DNA from: Romanomermis culicivorax
Lineage: Eukaryota; Nematoda; Enoplea; Mermithida; Mermithidae
Length of the DNA: 64,000 nucleotides
Assembly: GCA_963922205.1 (NCBI GenBank)
Contig: CAWUHX010000096.1
Span: forward strand, 1-64,000
Reading direction: 5' to 3'
In this document: piece after piece, positions 32,402-57,797 of the stretch
Position numbering within the stretch: position 1 is the first letter of the stretch
Layout of the letters: each line of letters opens with the position of its first letter
Notes under the pieces: model-generated
Databases searched by the model: none
The model's input: only the letters and a program-made list of their open reading frames with translations
Told to the model about the DNA's origin: nothing
Program-made: the position numbers and the translations under genes

Positions 32402-32666
32402 TGTAATGTACCTGCTAAAGAAGTACTGTAAATATGTAGCATACTGTATGTAATAGACATTTATTAGATATTATTTAATTTTCACATTTTATCGTCTCAA
32501 GGGTGTCTGGGATTCACACCCAAACATTCCTACAAAATTACGTGAAGTACTTTATTTTGATCCGTGCACACCCCGGTAGCCCAATTAAGATGCCCTAATT
32601 AATTTGCACAAACGGCAGCTGTTCCCCTAGAACCTACACTAAACTACACATTCCACAGCTACCATA
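32402..32666 (+). repeat. 5' LTR, portion shared with the 3' LTR
   Basis: It begins TGTAATGTACCTGCTAAAG and aligns without gaps to 36996-37260 at a constant offset of 4,594 bp, with about 11 substitutions. The left flank ends GCATCACTC, in the middle of a satellite monomer. The alignment stops because the 3' copy is truncated, not because this LTR ends. A TATA-like box at 33005 suggests that the LTR continues at least that far. I cannot fix its right end: no clear CA terminus followed by a TGG primer site stands out. Confidence 0.85.
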
Positions 32667-33232
32667 ATCCCCCGTAAAAATCGTAAACAACACCTGCACA
32701 CAGTAAAATACATAGAAGCCCCGCCAGACAGTAGTCTCAAGTGTTCAAGTGTAACGGTAGTGGCGGCCCCACAAAACATGTGTATACAGAGAAACCGATA
32801 CAGGAAGCATTCACAGAAGCACAAAGGTGTGGCCAAGCCCACCGTAGGAAGCAAGCAAAGCACAGAAAGCATACAGTACCAGGAAAGCATTAGAGAGGCG
32901 TAACTAAGTAAGCATAAAAAGCGTAGCAGGAAACGACGATTGGTGGAAGAAGATGGACAGAAGCTCGACCTCCCGCAACGCCCAGGGAGTGGCCAAAATC
33001 GCGGTATAAAAGAAGAAGCAAAGCGTGATTTGATGACTCTTATTCTCACTCTTCTTATTCTTGTGGTTACGTTTTTGACTTCCACACTCGCCCCGTCCTT
33101 TTTATATTTGCAAGCGGCCAATTGTTTGAAAGCAACTTAAACCAAGGCCCCGTTTGTATTGTAAAACGTGCCATCCGAATTGTGTATTGTCGACGTTCAA
33201 GCGACCGTCAATCACCCGTTGTTTTATTGTAA
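32667..33232 (+). other. Retrotransposon 5' region without a recognisable gene
   Basis: This stretch probably holds the rest of the 5' LTR and the leader. Open frames here (a 66-codon one at 32940-33140 on the plus strand and a 160-codon one on the minus strand) resemble no retroelement protein and contain no CCHC zinc knuckle. A TAA at 33230-33232 closes the pol-compatible frame on its left. A normal gag of several hundred codons cannot fit between the TATA-like box and the protease, so gag is missing by deletion. Confidence 0.6.
33005..33012 (+). promoter_or_regulatory. TATA-like box in the retrotransposon LTR
   Basis: TATAAAAG stands in a locally GC-richer context (preceded by AAAATCGCGG). 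In LTR elements the Pol II TATA box sits at the U3/R border, so this suggests the 5' LTR is over 600 bp long. This is motif evidence only. Confidence 0.45.
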
Positions 33233-33571
33233 CCGTACGCCCGTGCCCCCGTTCCGTTATTTGTCCCCGCCGTATCGACCGATTGGTTAGAAGTAAAGTA
33301 TGCTCTCTTAGAATTAACTAATCGTCCTGGGGCACAAACGCAGCAGAAATACATCCTTGTCGATATTGATACCCCCCGAACTCCTGCAATCGATTTCATT
33401 AATCAAATTCACCAATCTGCATCAAATAAGCCACCCCAAAATGTACCTGAGAAACATACCCCTCATATTCCAATCACACTTAACGGCAAATTAAGGACAA
33501 AAGGCATGATTGACACTGGTGCAGTTTACTCACTCATTGATTCCTGAATCACTCAACTTTTACAGTTAGAC
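33233..33571 (+). pseudogene. Protease N-terminal part of pol, interrupted by a stop
   Basis: In the same frame as the long pol frame downstream, this segment encodes about 90 residues leading to an aspartic protease active site. The DTG triad is encoded at 33512-33520, preceded by a beta-strand-like segment beginning IPITLNGK and followed by AVYSLID. A TGA at 33545-33547 interrupts the frame eight codons after the DTG. The rest of the protease continues past it in the same frame, so this is a nonsense mutation and not a frameshift. A TAA at 33230-33232 marks the upstream limit. Retropepsins act as dimers to process Gag-Pol. With this stop the copy cannot make one without readthrough. The residues before the protease could be the tail of Gag or a linker. 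No zinc knuckle is seen. Confidence 0.8.
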
Positions 33572-36500
33572 ATGAAACCCCCGCTAGTCCAAGCAAAAGC
33601 AGCGAATAATCTCCCGATTCATTTTGTAGGGACAACCTTTGTCACAGTGACAGCCCAAACAATCCAGGAAACAATCATGGTCCATGTCCAAAAAGATTGC
33701 ACAGCAGACATCCTTCTAGGCAAAAACTTCCTCAGTCGATTTTCGGAATACACTATCAACAATCAAAAATCTCAAGTCAAATTTGGCAATGTCATACTAC
33801 CTTGTGACGGCCTGGAATATAGCCCCCTCTCAACTCGTGGTGGAACTTATTTGGATGAGAAATTAGAATTACCACCCCGTACAGTAACCGAATTTACTGT
33901 CCGCTTGCCCAAATTGTACCTACAAATTAAACAGCTCGAATTCACTCCGAAACCCAAGCAGAATCCTAAAGTCCATTTCGCAGCTTGTATATCTGAAAAC
34001 CAAAACAGCCGCATACGCATATCGGTGCTAAACACACAAGAAACAGCTCAAATTCTTTACCCTGGAACATGCATTGGTACAGTCTCCTGCTACATCCCAA
34101 AACAAAATGCCCCCGCTAACGTAACCCCCTCCACGCAAAACCAACCCAATCGTTTTGATACATTCACATGGTTAAAAGGAAATGTTAATTTAACCTCCAG
34201 TGACCTCACAGAAACCGAGAAAACACAACTCCTACGCGCCCTATCGAAGTATCCTACATTATATGCTAAATCCAAAATGGACGTAGGTAGAACCACCCTT
34301 GTTTCACATACAATCGACACCAATGGCTCCCAACCCATACGTAGACAACTTTATCGGACTTCCCCAAAAGAAAAGCAAATTATACAAGCAGAAGTTGAGC
34401 AACTCGCAGCAGCAGGTGTCATAAGCCAAAGCAATTCCCCATGGTGTACCAATACAGTTTTAGTTCCAAAAAAAGATGGAGGCTATCGTTTATGCATTAA
34501 TTTTAGAGGCCTCAATAAAGTCACAAAAAAAGATACCTACCCCTTGCCCTGCATAGACGAAATTCTTGACACCCTCCGTGGAATGAAATATTTTACGTCC
34601 CTTGATCAATCCAATGCATATTATTCCATTCCCATAGCACAAGCAGACAGAGAAAAAACGGCCTTTAATTGCTCAGCCGGCCAGTATCAATTCAACTACC
34701 TCCCCTTTGGACTCACCAATGCCCCAGCCACATTCCAAAGATTAATGGATGTTATTCTTTCCGGTCTGCAATGGAACACATGCCTTGTGTATATCGACGA
34801 TGTTTTGGTATTCGCAGACTCCCATGCCCAAATGCTGGAACGTTTAGACACTATTCTTGCCCGATTCTCACAAGCAGGCCTTAAGCTAAACATACAAAAA
34901 TGCAAATTCTGCCAGCCCCAAGTCGAATACTTAGGCCGCCTCATTTCTCAGCAAGGCATTTCACCAGATCCCCATAAGGTACAGGCCATTTATGACATAC
35001 CCACACCCAAAAGCTCAAAAGAAGTTAAGTCATTCCTTGGCCTACCCTCATATTATCGCAGATTCATCCCAAATTGCTCTCAAGTTTCTAGCCCACTCAC
35101 ATCACTACTCAAAAAGAATTCCGAATTTTCCTGGGGCCCCGAACAGCAAAACGCATTCACTAAGCTAAAAGAATTACTCATCCATGCCCCAATACTACAG
35201 CATCCCGATTTCACAAAACCGTTTATTCTGCAAACTGACACCTCAAAACTCGGAATTGGCGCCGTTCTCAGTCAACTCGATAGTAAAGGTCAGGATCGCC
35301 CCATTGCTTTTGGGAGCTGCACACTAAAACCCGCAGAATGCAACTACCCGATCACTGAGTTGGAAACCCTTGCAGTAGTCGAATTTGTCAAGTATTTCCG
35401 CCCCTATCTTTTCCAGCAACATGTTATTGTACACACTGACCACACAGCAGTTCAGGCAGTCTTACAAAAGGAAAACCCGTCCCCTCGCATTGCCTGTTGG
35501 GGATTAGCCCTCTCTGGTATCCAGTTAGACATTCGACCCAAGAAAGGCACTGCTAACCGCAACGCAGATGCAGTTTCTCGATTCCCCTCACAGACAGCAA
35601 AACAATCCTTTGACATCGAGCAATTAGAAACCTGCCCCGAAATATCCACTATCAATTCGGTTTTGGAAGCTGAAGCAACTGAACAAGAAGAGCAACAGAA
35701 AAATTTTGCCGAACTCCAACGCACTGACCCAACTGTCAAAAGTATTTTAGCAAAAATTGCCCAAAAACACCCCCTTACTCTGATCAAATTCACAGTGCAT
35801 CAAAACATTCTCTTCCGTAAAGTCGACAAACAGGCAAAACTATACATTCCCAAGTCACAAGTCCAGCATCTCATCGCCTCACATCATGACAGCAAGTTCA
35901 CAGGTCATTTTGCGGCCCGAAAAACTTTACACTTGCTCAGACAAAAATATTTTTGGCCCCAAATGAGCCGTGATATCAAATGTTACTGCAAAACTTGTCA
36001 CCCATGCCAGACACAGAAAGCTCTTAGGCACAAAGTACATGCAAACTTGGTACCAATTCAGCCAACTGGCCCATTTGATAGAGTCGGTGTTGATTGCATG
36101 GGACCATTACCCCTCACTGAAGATGGCAATCGATTCATTGTCGTTTTCATCGATTATTTCACAAAGTATGTAGAGGCATTCCCGACCCCTGACATCACTG
36201 CAGCAACTATTGCCAAGCTATTCGTAACCAAAATTGTTTGCCATCATGGGTCCCCAAAAATCATCCATTGTGATCGTGGCTCCGATTTTGTATCTGATCT
36301 CTTCTCACGGATAACTAGTTTATGCAATACTCAGAAGATTCATACCACCCCATACCATCCCATTGCCAATGGAGAAGTTGAGCGTTGCAACCAGACCCTA
36401 GCCACCCGTATCCGCATGTACATCAATTCGAATCACTCTGATTGGGATACTTATCTGCCCTATGCCGTTTTTTCGATCAACATTCATAAAAATGATAGCA

Positions 36501-36964
36501 CATGGTATCCCCCATTTGAATTACTCCAGGGTCGGCAAGCTAATCTGCCATCAGGCACAGCTTTAAATTTTTTCCCCACATCCTACATGGTTGATTTGGA
36601 TGATTACGCCCTTTGTGTAAAATCGCATTTTACAGAAGCACTCTCAACCGTGCAGAAAAGTTTGCAAAAAGCCCAAGCCCACTATACCCATCAGTATAAC
36701 AAGCATGCTCATAACATACATTACAAGGCAGGTGATCTTATTCTCTACAAAAATCATTCGTGTAAACAAGGGCTGACTCCCAAATTCCTCCCTCGCCAAA
36801 ACGGACCCTATACAGTTACAAATTTCATGTACCCCAACATTACAGTTAAACACCCCCATAAGAATATTACATTTACGGTGCATGTAAATGAGACAACCCC
36901 TTTCTACCCTCGGAAAGCAACTATCGATTCTACCCCCACCCCTCCTCAACCTCGAAAGCCTTGA
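33572..36964 (+). CDS. pol: Ty3/gypsy Pol polyprotein (RT, RNase H, integrase), 1,130 aa open frame
   Basis: This frame runs uninterrupted to TGA at 36962-36964. Residues 1-55 are the end of the protease (ILLGKNFL at 47-54). RT follows, with catalytic Asp345 in SLDQSNAYY, LPFGLTNAP at 377-385 and YIDD at 407-410. RNase H has Asp556, Glu598, Asp623 and Asp666 in the expected order. Integrase begins with an HHCC zinc site (His772, His779, Cys809, Cys812), then a D,D-35-E core (Asp841, Asp901, Glu937), then a GPY motif at 1078-1080. No chromodomain follows: the protein ends about 50 residues later in a Pro-rich tail. All catalytic residues are present. The ATG is only the first Met after the protease stop at 33545, so the true product would be a larger Pol or Gag-Pol. 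It would copy element RNA into DNA and insert it, but gag is absent here, so the copy is not autonomous. Confidence 0.93.
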   Translation: MKPPLVQAKAANNLPIHFVGTTFVTVTAQTIQETIMVHVQKDCTADILLGKNFLSRFSEYTINNQKSQVKFGNVILPCDGLEYSPLSTRGGTYLDEKLELPPRTVTEFTVRLPKLYLQIKQLEFTPKPKQNPKVHFAACISENQNSRIRISVLNTQETAQILYPGTCIGTVSCYIPKQNAPANVTPSTQNQPNRFDTFTWLKGNVNLTSSDLTETEKTQLLRALSKYPTLYAKSKMDVGRTTLVSHTIDTNGSQPIRRQLYRTSPKEKQIIQAEVEQLAAAGVISQSNSPWCTNTVLVPKKDGGYRLCINFRGLNKVTKKDTYPLPCIDEILDTLRGMKYFTSLDQSNAYYSIPIAQADREKTAFNCSAGQYQFNYLPFGLTNAPATFQRLMDVILSGLQWNTCLVYIDDVLVFADSHAQMLERLDTILARFSQAGLKLNIQKCKFCQPQVEYLGRLISQQGISPDPHKVQAIYDIPTPKSSKEVKSFLGLPSYYRRFIPNCSQVSSPLTSLLKKNSEFSWGPEQQNAFTKLKELLIHAPILQHPDFTKPFILQTDTSKLGIGAVLSQLDSKGQDRPIAFGSCTLKPAECNYPITELETLAVVEFVKYFRPYLFQQHVIVHTDHTAVQAVLQKENPSPRIACWGLALSGIQLDIRPKKGTANRNADAVSRFPSQTAKQSFDIEQLETCPEISTINSVLEAEATEQEEQQKNFAELQRTDPTVKSILAKIAQKHPLTLIKFTVHQNILFRKVDKQAKLYIPKSQVQHLIASHHDSKFTGHFAARKTLHLLRQKYFWPQMSRDIKCYCKTCHPCQTQKALRHKVHANLVPIQPTGPFDRVGVDCMGPLPLTEDGNRFIVVFIDYFTKYVEAFPTPDITAATIAKLFVTKIVCHHGSPKIIHCDRGSDFVSDLFSRITSLCNTQKIHTTPYHPIANGEVERCNQTLATRIRMYINSNHSDWDTYLPYAVFSINIHKNDSTWYPPFELLQGRQANLPSGTALNFFPTSYMVDLDDYALCVKSHFTEALSTVQKSLQKAQAHYTHQYNKHAHNIHYKAGDLILYKNHSCKQGLTPKFLPRQNGPYTVTNFMYPNITVKHPHKNITFTVHVNETTPFYPRKATIDSTPTPPQPRKP

Positions 36965-36982
36965 ATGAGGACATTAAACTCC

Positions 36983-36995
36983 GGAAGGAGGGAAA
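36983..36995 (+). promoter_or_regulatory. Polypurine tract of the gypsy-type element
   Basis: GGAAGGAGGGAAA lies directly before the TG start of the 3' LTR, as expected for the plus-strand DNA primer site. It is 18 bp after the pol stop codon, which leaves no room for an env gene. Confidence 0.9.
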
Positions 36996-37262
36996 TGTAA
37001 AGTACCTGCTAAAGCAGTACTGTAAATATGTAGCATACTCTATGTGATAGACATTTATTAGATATTATTTTATTTTCACATTTTATCGTCTCAAGGGTGT
37101 CTGGGATTCACACCCAAACATTCCTACAAAATTATGTGAAGTACTTTATTTCGATCCGTTCACACCCCGGTAGCCCAGTTAAGATGCCATAATTAATTTG
37201 CACAAACGGCAGCTGTTCCCCTAGAACCTACACTAAACTACACATTCCACAGCTACCGTAAT
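36996..37262 (+). repeat. Truncated 3' LTR
   Basis: It starts TGTAAAGTACCTGCTAAAG and matches the 5' LTR to about 37260-37262, where it passes into satellite (ATTCCATATCTC). One or two bases at the junction fit both sides. It lacks a CA end and any target duplication, and it stops before the region equivalent to the TATA-like box of the 5' copy. The 3' part of the LTR was therefore lost together with some satellite. Confidence 0.85.
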
Positions 37263-40200
37263 TCCATATCTCAAGAACTATTCTGACAATCAGCCTAAAA
37301 CTCACCCTCATCACAAAACCAACTACCTAACAATCTGAAAACGCCTTTCCCATAACGTCAAAAATTTTTTCTCTCATAATTCAGAGTTAACAAAATGCCA
37401 ATTACGCATCAAAATAAGGATAACAGATTCACATCACTCCACCACTTAATCAACACCCCAAAACGACATGACTCCACCAGCAAATCATTAACAAACTACA
37501 ACAGATCAAAAAAGACCTCCAAATATCTCTTTCAGATAATTTCCTCTTCAACAATAGCCCAAAAGTAATATATCAGGTTTCTCATGTTTTTTGACCATTC
37601 AGACTACTTTATCATTCCATATCTCAAGAACCAATCTGACAATCGGCCTAAAACTCACCCTCATCAATAACCAACTACCAAACAATCTGAAAACGCCTTT
37701 CCCATTACGTCAAAAATTTTTTCCTCCATAACTCAGACTTAACAAAATGCTAATTATGCATCAAAATAAGGATAACAGATTTGCATCACTCCACAACTTA
37801 ATCAACACCCAAAAACGACATGACTCCACCAGCAAATCATTAACAAACTATAACAGATCAAAAAAGACATCCAAATCTCTCTTTCAGATAATTTTCTCTT
37901 CAACAATAGCGCAAAAGTAATATATCAAGTTTTTAATGTTTTTTGACCATTTGTACTACTTTATCATTCCATATCTCAAGAACTAATCTGACAATCGGCC
38001 TAAAACTCACCCTGATCAATAACCAACTACTAAACAATCTGAAAATGCTTTTCTCATAGCGTCCAAAATTTTTTTCACAATTATTCAGACTCAACAAAAT
38101 GCCAATTATGCATCAAAATAATGATAACACATTTGAACCATTTCCACAAATTAATCAACACCCCAAAACGACATGACTCCACCAGCAAATCATTAAAAAA
38201 CTACAACAGATCAAAAAAGACCTCCAAATATCTCTTTCAGATAATTTCCTCTCCAACAATAGCCCAATAGTAATATATCCAGTTTTTCACGCCTTTATGA
38301 CCATTCAGACTACTTTATCATTCCATATCTCAAGAACCATTCTGACAATCGGCCTAAAACTCACCCTCATCAATAACCATCTACCAAACAATCTGAAAAC
38401 GCCTTTCCCATAACAACAAAAATTTTTTCCCTCATAACTCAGACTTAACAAAGTGCTAATTATGCATCAAAATAATGATAACAGATTTGCACTACTCCAC
38501 AACATAATCAACACCCCAAAACGACATGACTCCACCAGCAAATCATTGAAAAACTACAACAGATCAAAAAAGACCTCCAAATCTCTCTTTCAGATAATTT
38601 TCTCTTCAACAATAGCCCAATAGTAATATATCCAGTTTTTAACACCTTCATGACCATTCAGACTACTTTATCATTCCATATCTCAAGAACCATTCTGACA
38701 ATCGGCCTAAAACTCACCCTCATCAAAAACCAACTACCAAACAATCTGAAAACGCCTTTCCCATAACGTCAAAAATTTTTTCCCTCATAATTCAGACTTA
38801 ACAAAATGCCAATTACGCATCAAAATAAGGATAACAGATTTGCATCACTCCACAACTTAATCAACACCCAAAAACGACATGACTCCACCAGCAAATCATT
38901 AACAAACTATAACAGATCAAGAAAGACATCCAAATCTCTCTTTCAGATAATTTTCTCTTCAACAATAGCCCAAAAGTAATATATCAAGTTTTTAAATGTT
39001 TTTTGACCATTTCGGACTACTTTATCATTCCATATCTCAAGAACCATTCTGACAATCGGCCTAAAACTCACCCTGATCAATAACCAACTACTAAACAATC
39101 TGAAAATGCTTTTCTCATAGCGTCCAAGATTTTTTTCACAATTATTCAGACTCAACAAAATGCCAATTATGCATCAAAATAACCATAACACATTTGAACC
39201 ATTTCCACAAATTAATCAACACCCCAAAACGACATGACTCCACCAGCAAATCATTAAAAAACTACAACAGATCAAAAAAGACCTCCAAATATCTCTTTCA
39301 GATAATTTCCTCTCCAACAATAGCCCAATAGTAATATATCCAGTTTTTAACGCCTTTATGACCATTCAGACTACTTTATCATTCCATATCTCAAGAACCA
39401 TTCTGACAATCGGCCTAAAACTCACCCTCATCAAAAACCAACTACCAAACAATCTGAAAACGCCTTTCCCATAACGTCAAAAATTTTTTCCCTCATAATT
39501 CAGACTTAACAAAATGCCAATTACGCATCAAAATAAGGATAACAGATTTGCATCACTCCACAACTTAATCAACACCCAAAAACGACATGACTCCACCAGC
39601 AAATCATTAACAAACTATAACAGATCAAGAAAGACATCCAAATCTCTCTTTCAGATAATTTTCTCTTCAACAATAGCGCAAAAGTAATATATCAAGTTTT
39701 TAATGTTTTTCCACTATTTGCACTACTTTATCATTCCATATCTCAAGAACTAATCTGACAATCGGCCTAAAACTCACCCTGATCAATAACCAACTACTAA
39801 ACAATCTGAAAATGCTTTTCTCATAGCGTCCAAGATTTTTTTCACAATTATTCAGACTCAACAATATGCCAATTATGCATCAAAATAACCATAACACATT
39901 TGAACCACTTCCACAAATTAATCAACACCCCAAAACGACATGACTCCACCAGCAAATCATTAAAAAACTACAACAGATCAAAAAAGACCTCCAAATATCT
40001 CTTTCAGATAATTTCCTCTTCAACAATAGCCCAATAGTAATATATCCAGTTTTTAACGCCTTTATGACCATTCAGACTACTTTATCATTCCATATCTCAA
40101 GAACCATTCTGACAATCGGCCTAAAACTCACCCTCATCAAAAACCAACTACCAAACAATCTGAAAACGCCTTTCCCATAACGTCAAAAATTTTTTCCCTC

Positions 40201-57330: not shown

Positions 57331-57334
57331 GCAC
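57331..57334. repeat. Target-site duplication, left copy (GCAC)
   Basis: GCAC is repeated at 57794-57797. Removing the element and one GCAC restores the monomer reading TTTGCACCACTCC, which is seen intact in other copies, for example near 59551 and 60961. A 4-bp duplication suits insertion by an LTR-retrotransposon integrase. Confidence 0.9.
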
Positions 57335-57392
57335 TGTCACGTGTCGCACGTCCGTACATCACCCCTTCGTACCAGTCGCAACACCGGCTCGG

Positions 57393-57404
57393 TAGTTCAA
57401 TCGG
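57393..57404 (+). promoter_or_regulatory. Pol III A box (5' LTR)
   Basis: TAGTTCAATCGG fits the A-box pattern TRGYNNANNNG. It lies in the D-arm position of the tRNA-like sequence, about 31 bp before the B box, a normal spacing. Confidence 0.75.
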
Positions 57405-57435
57405 TAGAACGCTGCACTATAGTCAACGAGATCCG

Positions 57436-57446
57436 GGTTCGAATCC
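57436..57446 (+). promoter_or_regulatory. Pol III B box (5' LTR)
   Basis: GGTTCGAATCC is a perfect match to the B-box consensus GGTTCGANTCC recognised by TFIIIC. It occupies the T arm of the tRNA-like sequence. Confidence 0.82.
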
Positions 57447-57459
57447 CGGTCGAGCATTA

Positions 57460-57464
57460 TTTTT
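57460..57464 (+). terminator. Pol III T5 terminator (5' LTR)
   Basis: TTTTT starts three bases after the tRNA-like sequence. A Pol III transcript would be about 80 nt and would stop inside the LTR. Confidence 0.6.
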
Positions 57465-57520
57465 CAAAACGGTGTTTGGCGATGGTTACGATGACAACGC
57501 GTTTACCCATTTACGTGTCA

Positions 57521-57538
57521 TGGCGAGGCTTGGATTGG
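57521..57538 (+). promoter_or_regulatory. Candidate primer-binding site of the miniature element
   Basis: TGGCGAGGCTTGGATTGG starts directly after the 5' LTR. The TGG start fits annealing to a tRNA CCA tail. When the complement is laid over a tRNA 3' end, the conserved T-loop bases fall about three positions out of register. Either the match is shorter than 18 bases or a tRNA fragment acts as primer. The primer tRNA is not identified. Confidence 0.5.
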
Positions 57539-57539
57539 T

Positions 57540-57553
57540 CCCACATTGGTGGG
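57540..57553 (+). other. Hairpin 1 in the internal region
   Basis: CCCAC-ATTG-GTGGG is a perfect 5-bp stem with a 4-base loop. It may be extended by GG/CC across a one-base bulge (57537-57555). It lies immediately after the candidate primer-binding site, where retroelement RNAs often carry dimerisation or packaging structures. That role is inference. Confidence 0.55.
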
Positions 57554-57575
57554 CCGCAGAACCTGCATCTTCAAC

Positions 57576-57589
57576 GGACGAAGTCGTCC
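57576..57589 (+). other. Hairpin 2 in the internal region
   Basis: GGACGAAGTCGTCC is self-complementary except for its two central bases: GGACGA/TCGTCC with an AG centre, more likely a 5-bp stem with loop AAGT in RNA. The near-palindrome could also pair between two RNA copies. Confidence 0.55.
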
Positions 57590-57596
57590 TTCTTTC

Positions 57597-57607
57597 AAGT
57601 GGGGGAA
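57597..57607 (+). promoter_or_regulatory. Polypurine tract of the miniature element
   Basis: AAGTGGGGGAA abuts the TG of the 3' LTR. It is the expected plus-strand primer position, with one T interrupting the purines. Confidence 0.8.
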
Positions 57608-57665
57608 TGTCACGTGTCGCACGTCCGTACATCACCCCTTCGTACCAGTCGCAACACCGGCTCGG

Positions 57666-57677
57666 TAGTTCAATCGG
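57666..57677 (+). promoter_or_regulatory. Pol III A box (3' LTR)
   Basis: TAGTTCAATCGG, identical to the copy in the 5' LTR. Confidence 0.72.
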
Positions 57678-57708
57678 TAGAACGCTGCACTATAGTCAAC
57701 GAGATCCG

Positions 57709-57719
57709 GGTTCGAATCC
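57709..57719 (+). promoter_or_regulatory. Pol III B box (3' LTR)
   Basis: GGTTCGAATCC, a perfect consensus match, identical to the copy in the 5' LTR. Confidence 0.8.
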
Positions 57720-57732
57720 CGGTCGAGCATTA

Positions 57733-57737
57733 TTTTT
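57733..57737 (+). terminator. Pol III T5 terminator (3' LTR)
   Basis: A TTTTT run three bases after the second tRNA-like sequence. Confidence 0.58.
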
Positions 57738-57793
57738 CAAAATGGTGTTTGGCGATGGTTACGATGACAACGCGTTTACCCATTTACGTGTCA

Positions 57794-57797
57794 GCAC
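57794..57797. repeat. Target-site duplication, right copy (GCAC)
   Basis: It matches 57331-57334 and is followed by CACTCCACAACTC, the expected continuation of the interrupted monomer. Confidence 0.9.

Follow-up and report, generated by a model that had tools for sequence, protein, structure and literature searches.

A likely Helenus-type TRIM family with tRNA-like sequence in its LTRs in Romanomermis culicivorax

Introduction

What is a tRNA-like sequence doing in both LTRs of an element that is only 459 bp long? The element lies in a stretch of 64,000 nucleotides of Romanomermis culicivorax DNA (the window, positions 1–64000), which is mostly a satellite array of about 352–353 bp per unit with two retroelement insertions within it. 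The initial annotation read positions 57335–57793 as a miniature LTR retroelement whose LTRs had each captured a tRNA-like Pol III gene, and picked it as the best candidate in the window for something undescribed. We examined the anatomy of this copy, its relatives in the source genome, and the elements already published that resemble it. The explanation we consider best, with a probability of roughly 0.85, is a non-autonomous TRIM that is of the Helenus type by its architecture and whose cycle would be driven by Pol III.

Anatomy of the element and its insertion site

The TRIM copy at 57335–57793 is on the forward (+) strand and consists of a 186-bp LTR (57335–57520), an 87-bp internal region (57521–57607) and a second 186-bp LTR (57608–57793). 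A repeat search placed the LTRs 273 bp apart at 99% identity, and a base comparison found a single mismatch between them, at LTR position 136. The LTRs have TG...CA termini, starting with TGTCACGTG and finishing with ACGTGTCA, and these form a short imperfect inverted repeat. A candidate primer-binding site, TGGCGAGGCTTGGATT, adjoins the 5' LTR (57521–57536), and a purine tract, AAGTGGGGGAA, stands directly before the 3' LTR (57597–57607). The internal region has no recognisable coding sequence, and a protein search with the two long frames of the LTR and internal region returned no candidate match. TRIMs are delimited by size (less than about 1 kb), two LTRs and lack of coding sequence, and the window element has all of these properties.

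On either side of the element is the word GCAC (57331–57334 on the left and 57794–57797 on the right). For an empty-site test, we fused the 30 bases of left flank adjoining the element to the 26 bases that follow the second GCAC and compared the resulting 56-mer with the window. Five other satellite monomers match it at 55 of 56 bases, each with one GCAC, and 117 places in the window are within eight mismatches of it. Because the unoccupied monomers carry a single GCAC, we conclude that the element entered one satellite monomer and duplicated four bases in doing so. The LTRs and their ends, the GCAC duplication, the purine tract and the length of the internal region had all been described in the initial annotation, and the repeat search and base comparison confirmed them.

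A family in the source genome

We searched the source genome (359 Mb in 595 contigs) with the whole element and with the start of its LTR. The 459-bp query gave at least 50 rows at 92–100% identity, from the 40 of 436 candidates that were scored. The first 26 nt of the LTR had 523 genome matches at up to three mismatches (274 and 249 on the two strands), while the same 26 nt reversed, as a control, had no genome match at that threshold. We then read 38 regions, the window's own included, which are the places listed in the 459-bp search; L005, L007 and L008 were set aside because L009, L010 and L011 already include their places.

The 38 regions hold 41 units: 30 have two LTRs, 10 have three LTRs with two internal regions, and one is a single LTR. 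Of the 41 units, 31 are bounded by an exact 4-bp duplication, for which 27 different words occur; these 31 include seven of the ten three-LTR arrays. No 5-bp duplications were flagged among the 31 rows listed. In the other 10, the LTR boundaries show no exact duplication. In L009 a CCCC duplication is seen after an 8-bp shift, and L017 and L040 have a duplication with one mismatch; no boundary duplication is present in L041, in the lone LTR of L029 or in five units spread over L022, L023 and L038.

The flanks of L022, L023 and L038 are common to all three, in register, at about 97–100% identity, and their five TRIM units are duplication-free. We do not count these as independent insertions because they are copies of one segment carrying two TRIMs. 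Many other flanks share repeats as well, and in our flank comparison of the 38 regions none of those repeats was seen in register with the TRIM. L041 (G000:C80:452072-455531) is probably a tandem duplication carrying a TRIM: its left and right flanks repeat each other with a period of 2173 bp, at 99.8% identity over 1287 bp, and another LTR end is found 2173 bp further on.

In the 30 two-LTR units, the two LTRs differ by 0–3 bases in 15 cases and by a maximum of 21 in the oldest. Differences of 0–3 bases are expected because of recent reverse transcription. L021 is an odd case, in which the LTRs belong to different subfamilies, with 11 differences, on opposite sides of a well-supported tree split, and yet are bounded by an exact CACG duplication. 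This pattern points to recombination, template switching or gene conversion. Positions were listed for 100 of the 523 LTR ends; 51 of these 100 are inside units that we had already read, 14 more have a listed partner 200–350 bp away, and 35 are without one. These 35 are possible solo LTRs, or else their partners may carry more mismatches. The primer-site pattern was also found in two stretches of viral contigs (L042 and L043), and the tRNA-like pattern in none of the viral contigs.

This is a real LTR family, and it looks abundant and young. The initial annotation's main proposal, a TRIM family with a captured tRNA-type promoter, is well supported by the 523 LTR ends, the two-LTR elements, the positions of the primer site and purine tract, and the variety of exact duplications. 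It had named two outcomes that would count against this, a single locus or a unit found mainly as a tandem tRNA repeat without the purine tract and duplications, and the 41 units show neither.

The tRNA-like sequence

ARAGORN called a tRNA-Ile (TAT) at 57386–57457 in the 5' LTR and at 57659–57730 in the 3' LTR, both on the forward strand, and no other tRNA in the 64-kb window. Rfam RF00005 scored 38.4 bits in each window LTR, with a gathering threshold of 29 and an E-value of 2.6e-6. Both LTRs carry the A box TAGTTCAATCGG (57393–57404 in the 5' LTR and, 273 bp further 3', 57666–57677), the B box GGTTCGAATCC (57436–57446 and 57709–57719) and a T5 that is a putative Pol III terminator (57460–57464 and 57733–57737). 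Pairing in the window copy is complete in the D stem (4/4) and the T stem (5/5) and nearly so in the acceptor stem (6/7), where the first pair is G-A; the anticodon stem has one pair of five. The D arm, T arm, boxes and T5 reported in the initial annotation were thus all found. Its "tRNA-like Pol III gene" stands as a tRNA-like sequence with promoter boxes, but with the anticodon arm at 1/5 the implied transcribable tRNA was an overstatement.

We compared 91 LTRs across the copies. The A-box consensus is present in 86, the B box GGTTCRANNC in 83, and a run of at least four Ts 3' of the tRNA-like part in 86. ARAGORN called a tRNA in 58 of them, 53 as Ile (TAT) and 5 as Tyr (ATA), the called anticodon shifting from TAT to ATA between subfamilies, and made no calls in L029, L033, L036, L039, L040 or L041. 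In the ten regions that we submitted to Rfam, 18 of 21 LTRs passed as tRNA. A haplotype of a second subfamily has an anticodon stem of 3/5 and an acceptor stem of 5/7; its anticodon arm thus looks more like that of a real tRNA, whereas its acceptor stem does not.

Judged by these features, the tRNA-like part is a promoter-like relic and no working tRNA. Kept D and T arms beside a lost anticodon arm are expected of a promoter and not of a tRNA, and we believe that the broken tRNA gene in each LTR probably serves as the element's promoter. The acceptor stem is still kept at 6/7 in the window copy, and a pure promoter would need none.

The initial annotation proposed comparing copies to see whether the A and B boxes are conserved above the LTR background. 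At non-CpG sites, variation is 0.0085 in the promoter boxes and T run versus 0.0268 in the rest of the LTR, with a permutation p of 0.105. Variation on the U5 side of the LTR (0.0146) is nearly as low as in the tRNA-like part (0.0138). Because of this p value and the equally constant U5, conservation above background is not demonstrated. All 91 LTRs were drawn from a single search in which 40 of 436 candidates were scored, and they are mostly young and carry little information on selection.

There is a practical side to these calls. With 523 LTR ends and ARAGORN calling a tRNA in 58 of 91 LTRs, a tRNA gene count for this genome could be inflated by hundreds.

Internal region and priming

The internal region is almost invariant across the 49 internals that we aligned, including the positions of the primer site and purine tract. 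In its first 15 bases, TGGCGAGGCTTGGAT, two copies at most deviate at any position. One base of the purine tract is T in the window copy alone; it is G in 37 of the 49 internals, C in one and unaligned in ten. By position and conservation, the two ends of the internal region are where a primer-binding site and a polypurine tract belong.

Pairing the TGG of the candidate primer site to a CCA end implies a tRNA ending in AATCCAAGCCTCG-CCA, with A at position 61. Cytosolic tRNAs have C at position 61. Because the implied A61 breaks this tRNA invariant, either only about 13 bases would match or the primer would be an unusual one.

We tried two other sources of a primer and rejected both. Self-priming is named for Tf1-type elements (PMC6934838); here, the first 30 internal bases have no exact complement in the LTR longer than 5 nt, a length that 483 of 500 shuffled leaders reached. 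For priming by the 3' end of the LTR's own tRNA-like sequence, we compared that end by eye with the implied tRNA end and found only AATCC in common.

Alternative explanations

It is possible that the element is a TRIM with an ordinary Pol II promoter in U3, and that the tRNA-like sequence is a passenger, the relic of a SINE insertion that is copied with the LTR. The boxes are not significantly more conserved than the rest of the LTR, as this would predict, and a TATA box is present in U3 of the ant element PbTRIM, whose LTRs are of comparable length and which also makes 4-bp duplications (PMC3532108). The T5 3' of the tRNA-like part would also hinder Pol III from reaching the 3' LTR. However, a passive relic would decay evenly, and the window copy has perfect D and T arms, where the promoter lies, next to a ruined anticodon stem. 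The B box GGTTCRANNC has been retained in most of the LTRs (83/91), and we saw no TATA box by eye in the 51 bp upstream of the tRNA-like part. We regard a Pol II promoter as unlikely.

LTRs could also be mimicked by clustered tRNA genes or pseudogenes or by a tandem SINE. The 10 of 41 units with three LTRs and two internals would suit such a cluster, as would the 53 Ile and 5 Tyr calls in 58 of 91 LTRs, but the 30 units with exactly two LTRs do not, and seven of the ten arrays are bounded as a whole by an exact 4-bp duplication. TG...CA ends and the positions of a primer site and a purine tract are seen in the repeat unit, LTRs are absent from SINEs, and an anticodon stem of 1/5 is not that of a tRNA gene; we find this mimicry very improbable. 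A functional tRNA gene in the LTR (called as Ile-UAU or Tyr-AUA) that feeds the host tRNA pool is hardly credible, even though ARAGORN and Rfam pass both window LTRs and many others (58/91 with ARAGORN and, in ten regions, 18/21 with Rfam). The same anticodon stem and the G-A first acceptor pair speak against it, as do a called anticodon that is TAT or ATA depending on the subfamily and the six regions in which ARAGORN called nothing. A Helenus-type TRIM that uses its tRNA-like sequence as a promoter is the reading that we follow below.

Relation to known elements

Judged by its architecture, the element is probably a further family of the known Helenus kind. Kojima 2024 (PMC10886601) searched LTRs for tRNA-derived sequence and named the TRIMs that were found Helenus. 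They are 311–1263 bp long, occur in fungi, in one plant species and in six animal phyla, have a PBS and a PPT, and make 4-bp duplications in animals. This is exactly the architecture that we see, and the origin proposed there, a SINE inserted into an LTR, is the same one that the initial annotation had suggested, so its suggestion of something undescribed does not hold for the kind of element. According to the same paper, a functional tRNA is predicted for only a few members, the zebrafish member (LTR-11_DR) occurs in tandem arrays, Pol III transcription is an expectation, and mobilisation by Gypsy is proposed for the animal members (PMC10886601). Among insects, its Table 1 includes families placed there in Chalcidoidea (with Cynipidae as one of them) and has no ants. 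In the open literature on Helenus or TRIMp3 we found this paper and a 2026 meeting report that cites it.

Our element resembles Helenus, as described there, in its TRIM size, its A- and B-box-bearing tRNA-derived sequence in both LTRs, its lack of coding sequence and its PBS and PPT positions. Its 4-bp duplications are as in the animal members, unlike the fungal or plant ones, and its tRNA-like part is non-functional, as in most members. The difference is in box A, which is TAGTT...CGG here versus TRGCY...YGG in most members, one base off. When we checked the published box motif, which is stated for "most" members, YGG and GGTTC were present and TRGCY had one mismatch. This base is the one departure that we found from the Helenus description, and it was by description that we compared the named Helenus families.

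Other TRIMs share parts of this design. Cassandra of plants also has the promoter and terminator of a Pol III gene inside its LTR (PMC7215508, PMC10886601) and forms short arrays of about three LTRs in many plants, with multi-unit transcripts from its arrays. It differs in that its LTR carries 5S rRNA and not tRNA sequence, in being found in plants, and in that transcription is reported for it and inferred for our element (PMC7215508). Ajax of nemerteans likewise has a captured Pol III-type promoter in a TRIM LTR, but the sequence is part of 5S rRNA and the duplications are 5 bp (PMC10886601). PbTRIM of the harvester ant, to which the initial annotation's mention of ants points, is a non-coding element of 480–781 bp with LTRs of 152–184 bp and 4-bp duplications; unlike our element, it is described with a TATA box in U3, a PBS to tRNA-Leu and the target ATAT, and its description, in the sections we cite, mentions no tRNA-derived sequence in the LTR (PMC3532108).

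The biv-TRIM elements of bivalves form tandem arrays of the type LTR_x internal_(x-1), as ours do, and solo LTRs are found as well. A canonical PBS is not unambiguous in them, and a tRNA promoter in the LTR goes unmentioned in the cited account (PMC6934838). We do not claim the arrays as new because tandem arrays are described as common in Cassandra, in plant LTR elements and in bivalve TRIMs (PMC7215508, PMC6934838).

The element opens no new class. LTR elements that have captured a Pol III promoter (TRIMp3) are few, and to these it adds an apparently young and abundant family. Its near-identical copies would make it a good system in which to test Pol III transcription and the escape of full-length RNA from the terminator in the 5' LTR.

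A proposed life cycle

For the polymerase, the start and stop of the RNA, the primer and the partner element we infer the following cycle, modelled on the LTR-retrotransposon scheme given for Helenus and Cassandra (PMC10886601). TFIIIC and Pol III would use the tRNA-like sequence as an internal promoter. The RNA would start near 57386 in the 5' LTR, read through the first T5, cross the internal region and stop at the T5 of the 3' LTR (57733–57737), for a length of roughly 350 nt. The tRNA-like stretch would then be the terminal redundancy R, about 75–80 nt at each end of the RNA. A host tRNA would prime at 57521, strand transfer would go via R, and the purine tract would prime the second strand.

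The proteins would be supplied in trans by an autonomous element, most likely a Ty3/Gypsy element, and would also carry out the integration. We name Gypsy as the likely partner because Gypsy elements and the Helenus families of animals have primer sites in common (PMC10886601).

In most initiations, Pol III would be expected to terminate at the first T5, leaving a short tRNA-like RNA. Because this T5 lies directly 3' of the tRNA-like part in the 5' LTR, the full-length RNA would be a minority read-through product. We do not think that the 5' LTR terminator is prohibitive because transcripts of Cassandra arrays read through the intervening LTRs (PMC7215508). If the cycle is as we propose, the three-LTR arrays, 10 of the 41 sampled units, would line up several promoters and terminators.

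We consider a fuller version of this picture possible, though less likely than not. In it, the family would be of the Helenus type in a lineage without a reported one and of independent tRNA or SINE origin, the whole tRNA-like part would act as R, the genomic RNA would have a tRNA-like fold at both ends, and Pol III termination at the first T5 would be leaky.

Neighbouring Gypsy elements and another tRNA-like sequence

The window has a Ty3/Gypsy-like retrotransposon at about 32402–37265, with 270-bp repeats that are 96% alike and a pol frame of 1130 codons with RT, RNase H and integrase domains. The best matches to its pol segment are at 64–67%, and the best pseudoscorpion matches are at about 42–46%. 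The TRIM primer site does not occur in this Gypsy element at up to three mismatches. In L040, a three-LTR TRIM array adjoins Gypsy-like frames, one of which is envelope-like by eye and another of which resembles the protease region of the window's Gypsy.

In L032 there is a better-formed tRNA-like sequence (L032:323-394, reverse strand), with an Rfam score of 56 bits and called as tRNA-Phe GAA. It is followed by TATTTTTCAAAA, the same 12 bases that stand 3' of the TRIM's tRNA-like part, and a Gypsy LTR of the window's family starts shortly past it. Its sequence and surroundings would fit a SINE, a tRNA gene or a second Helenus family.
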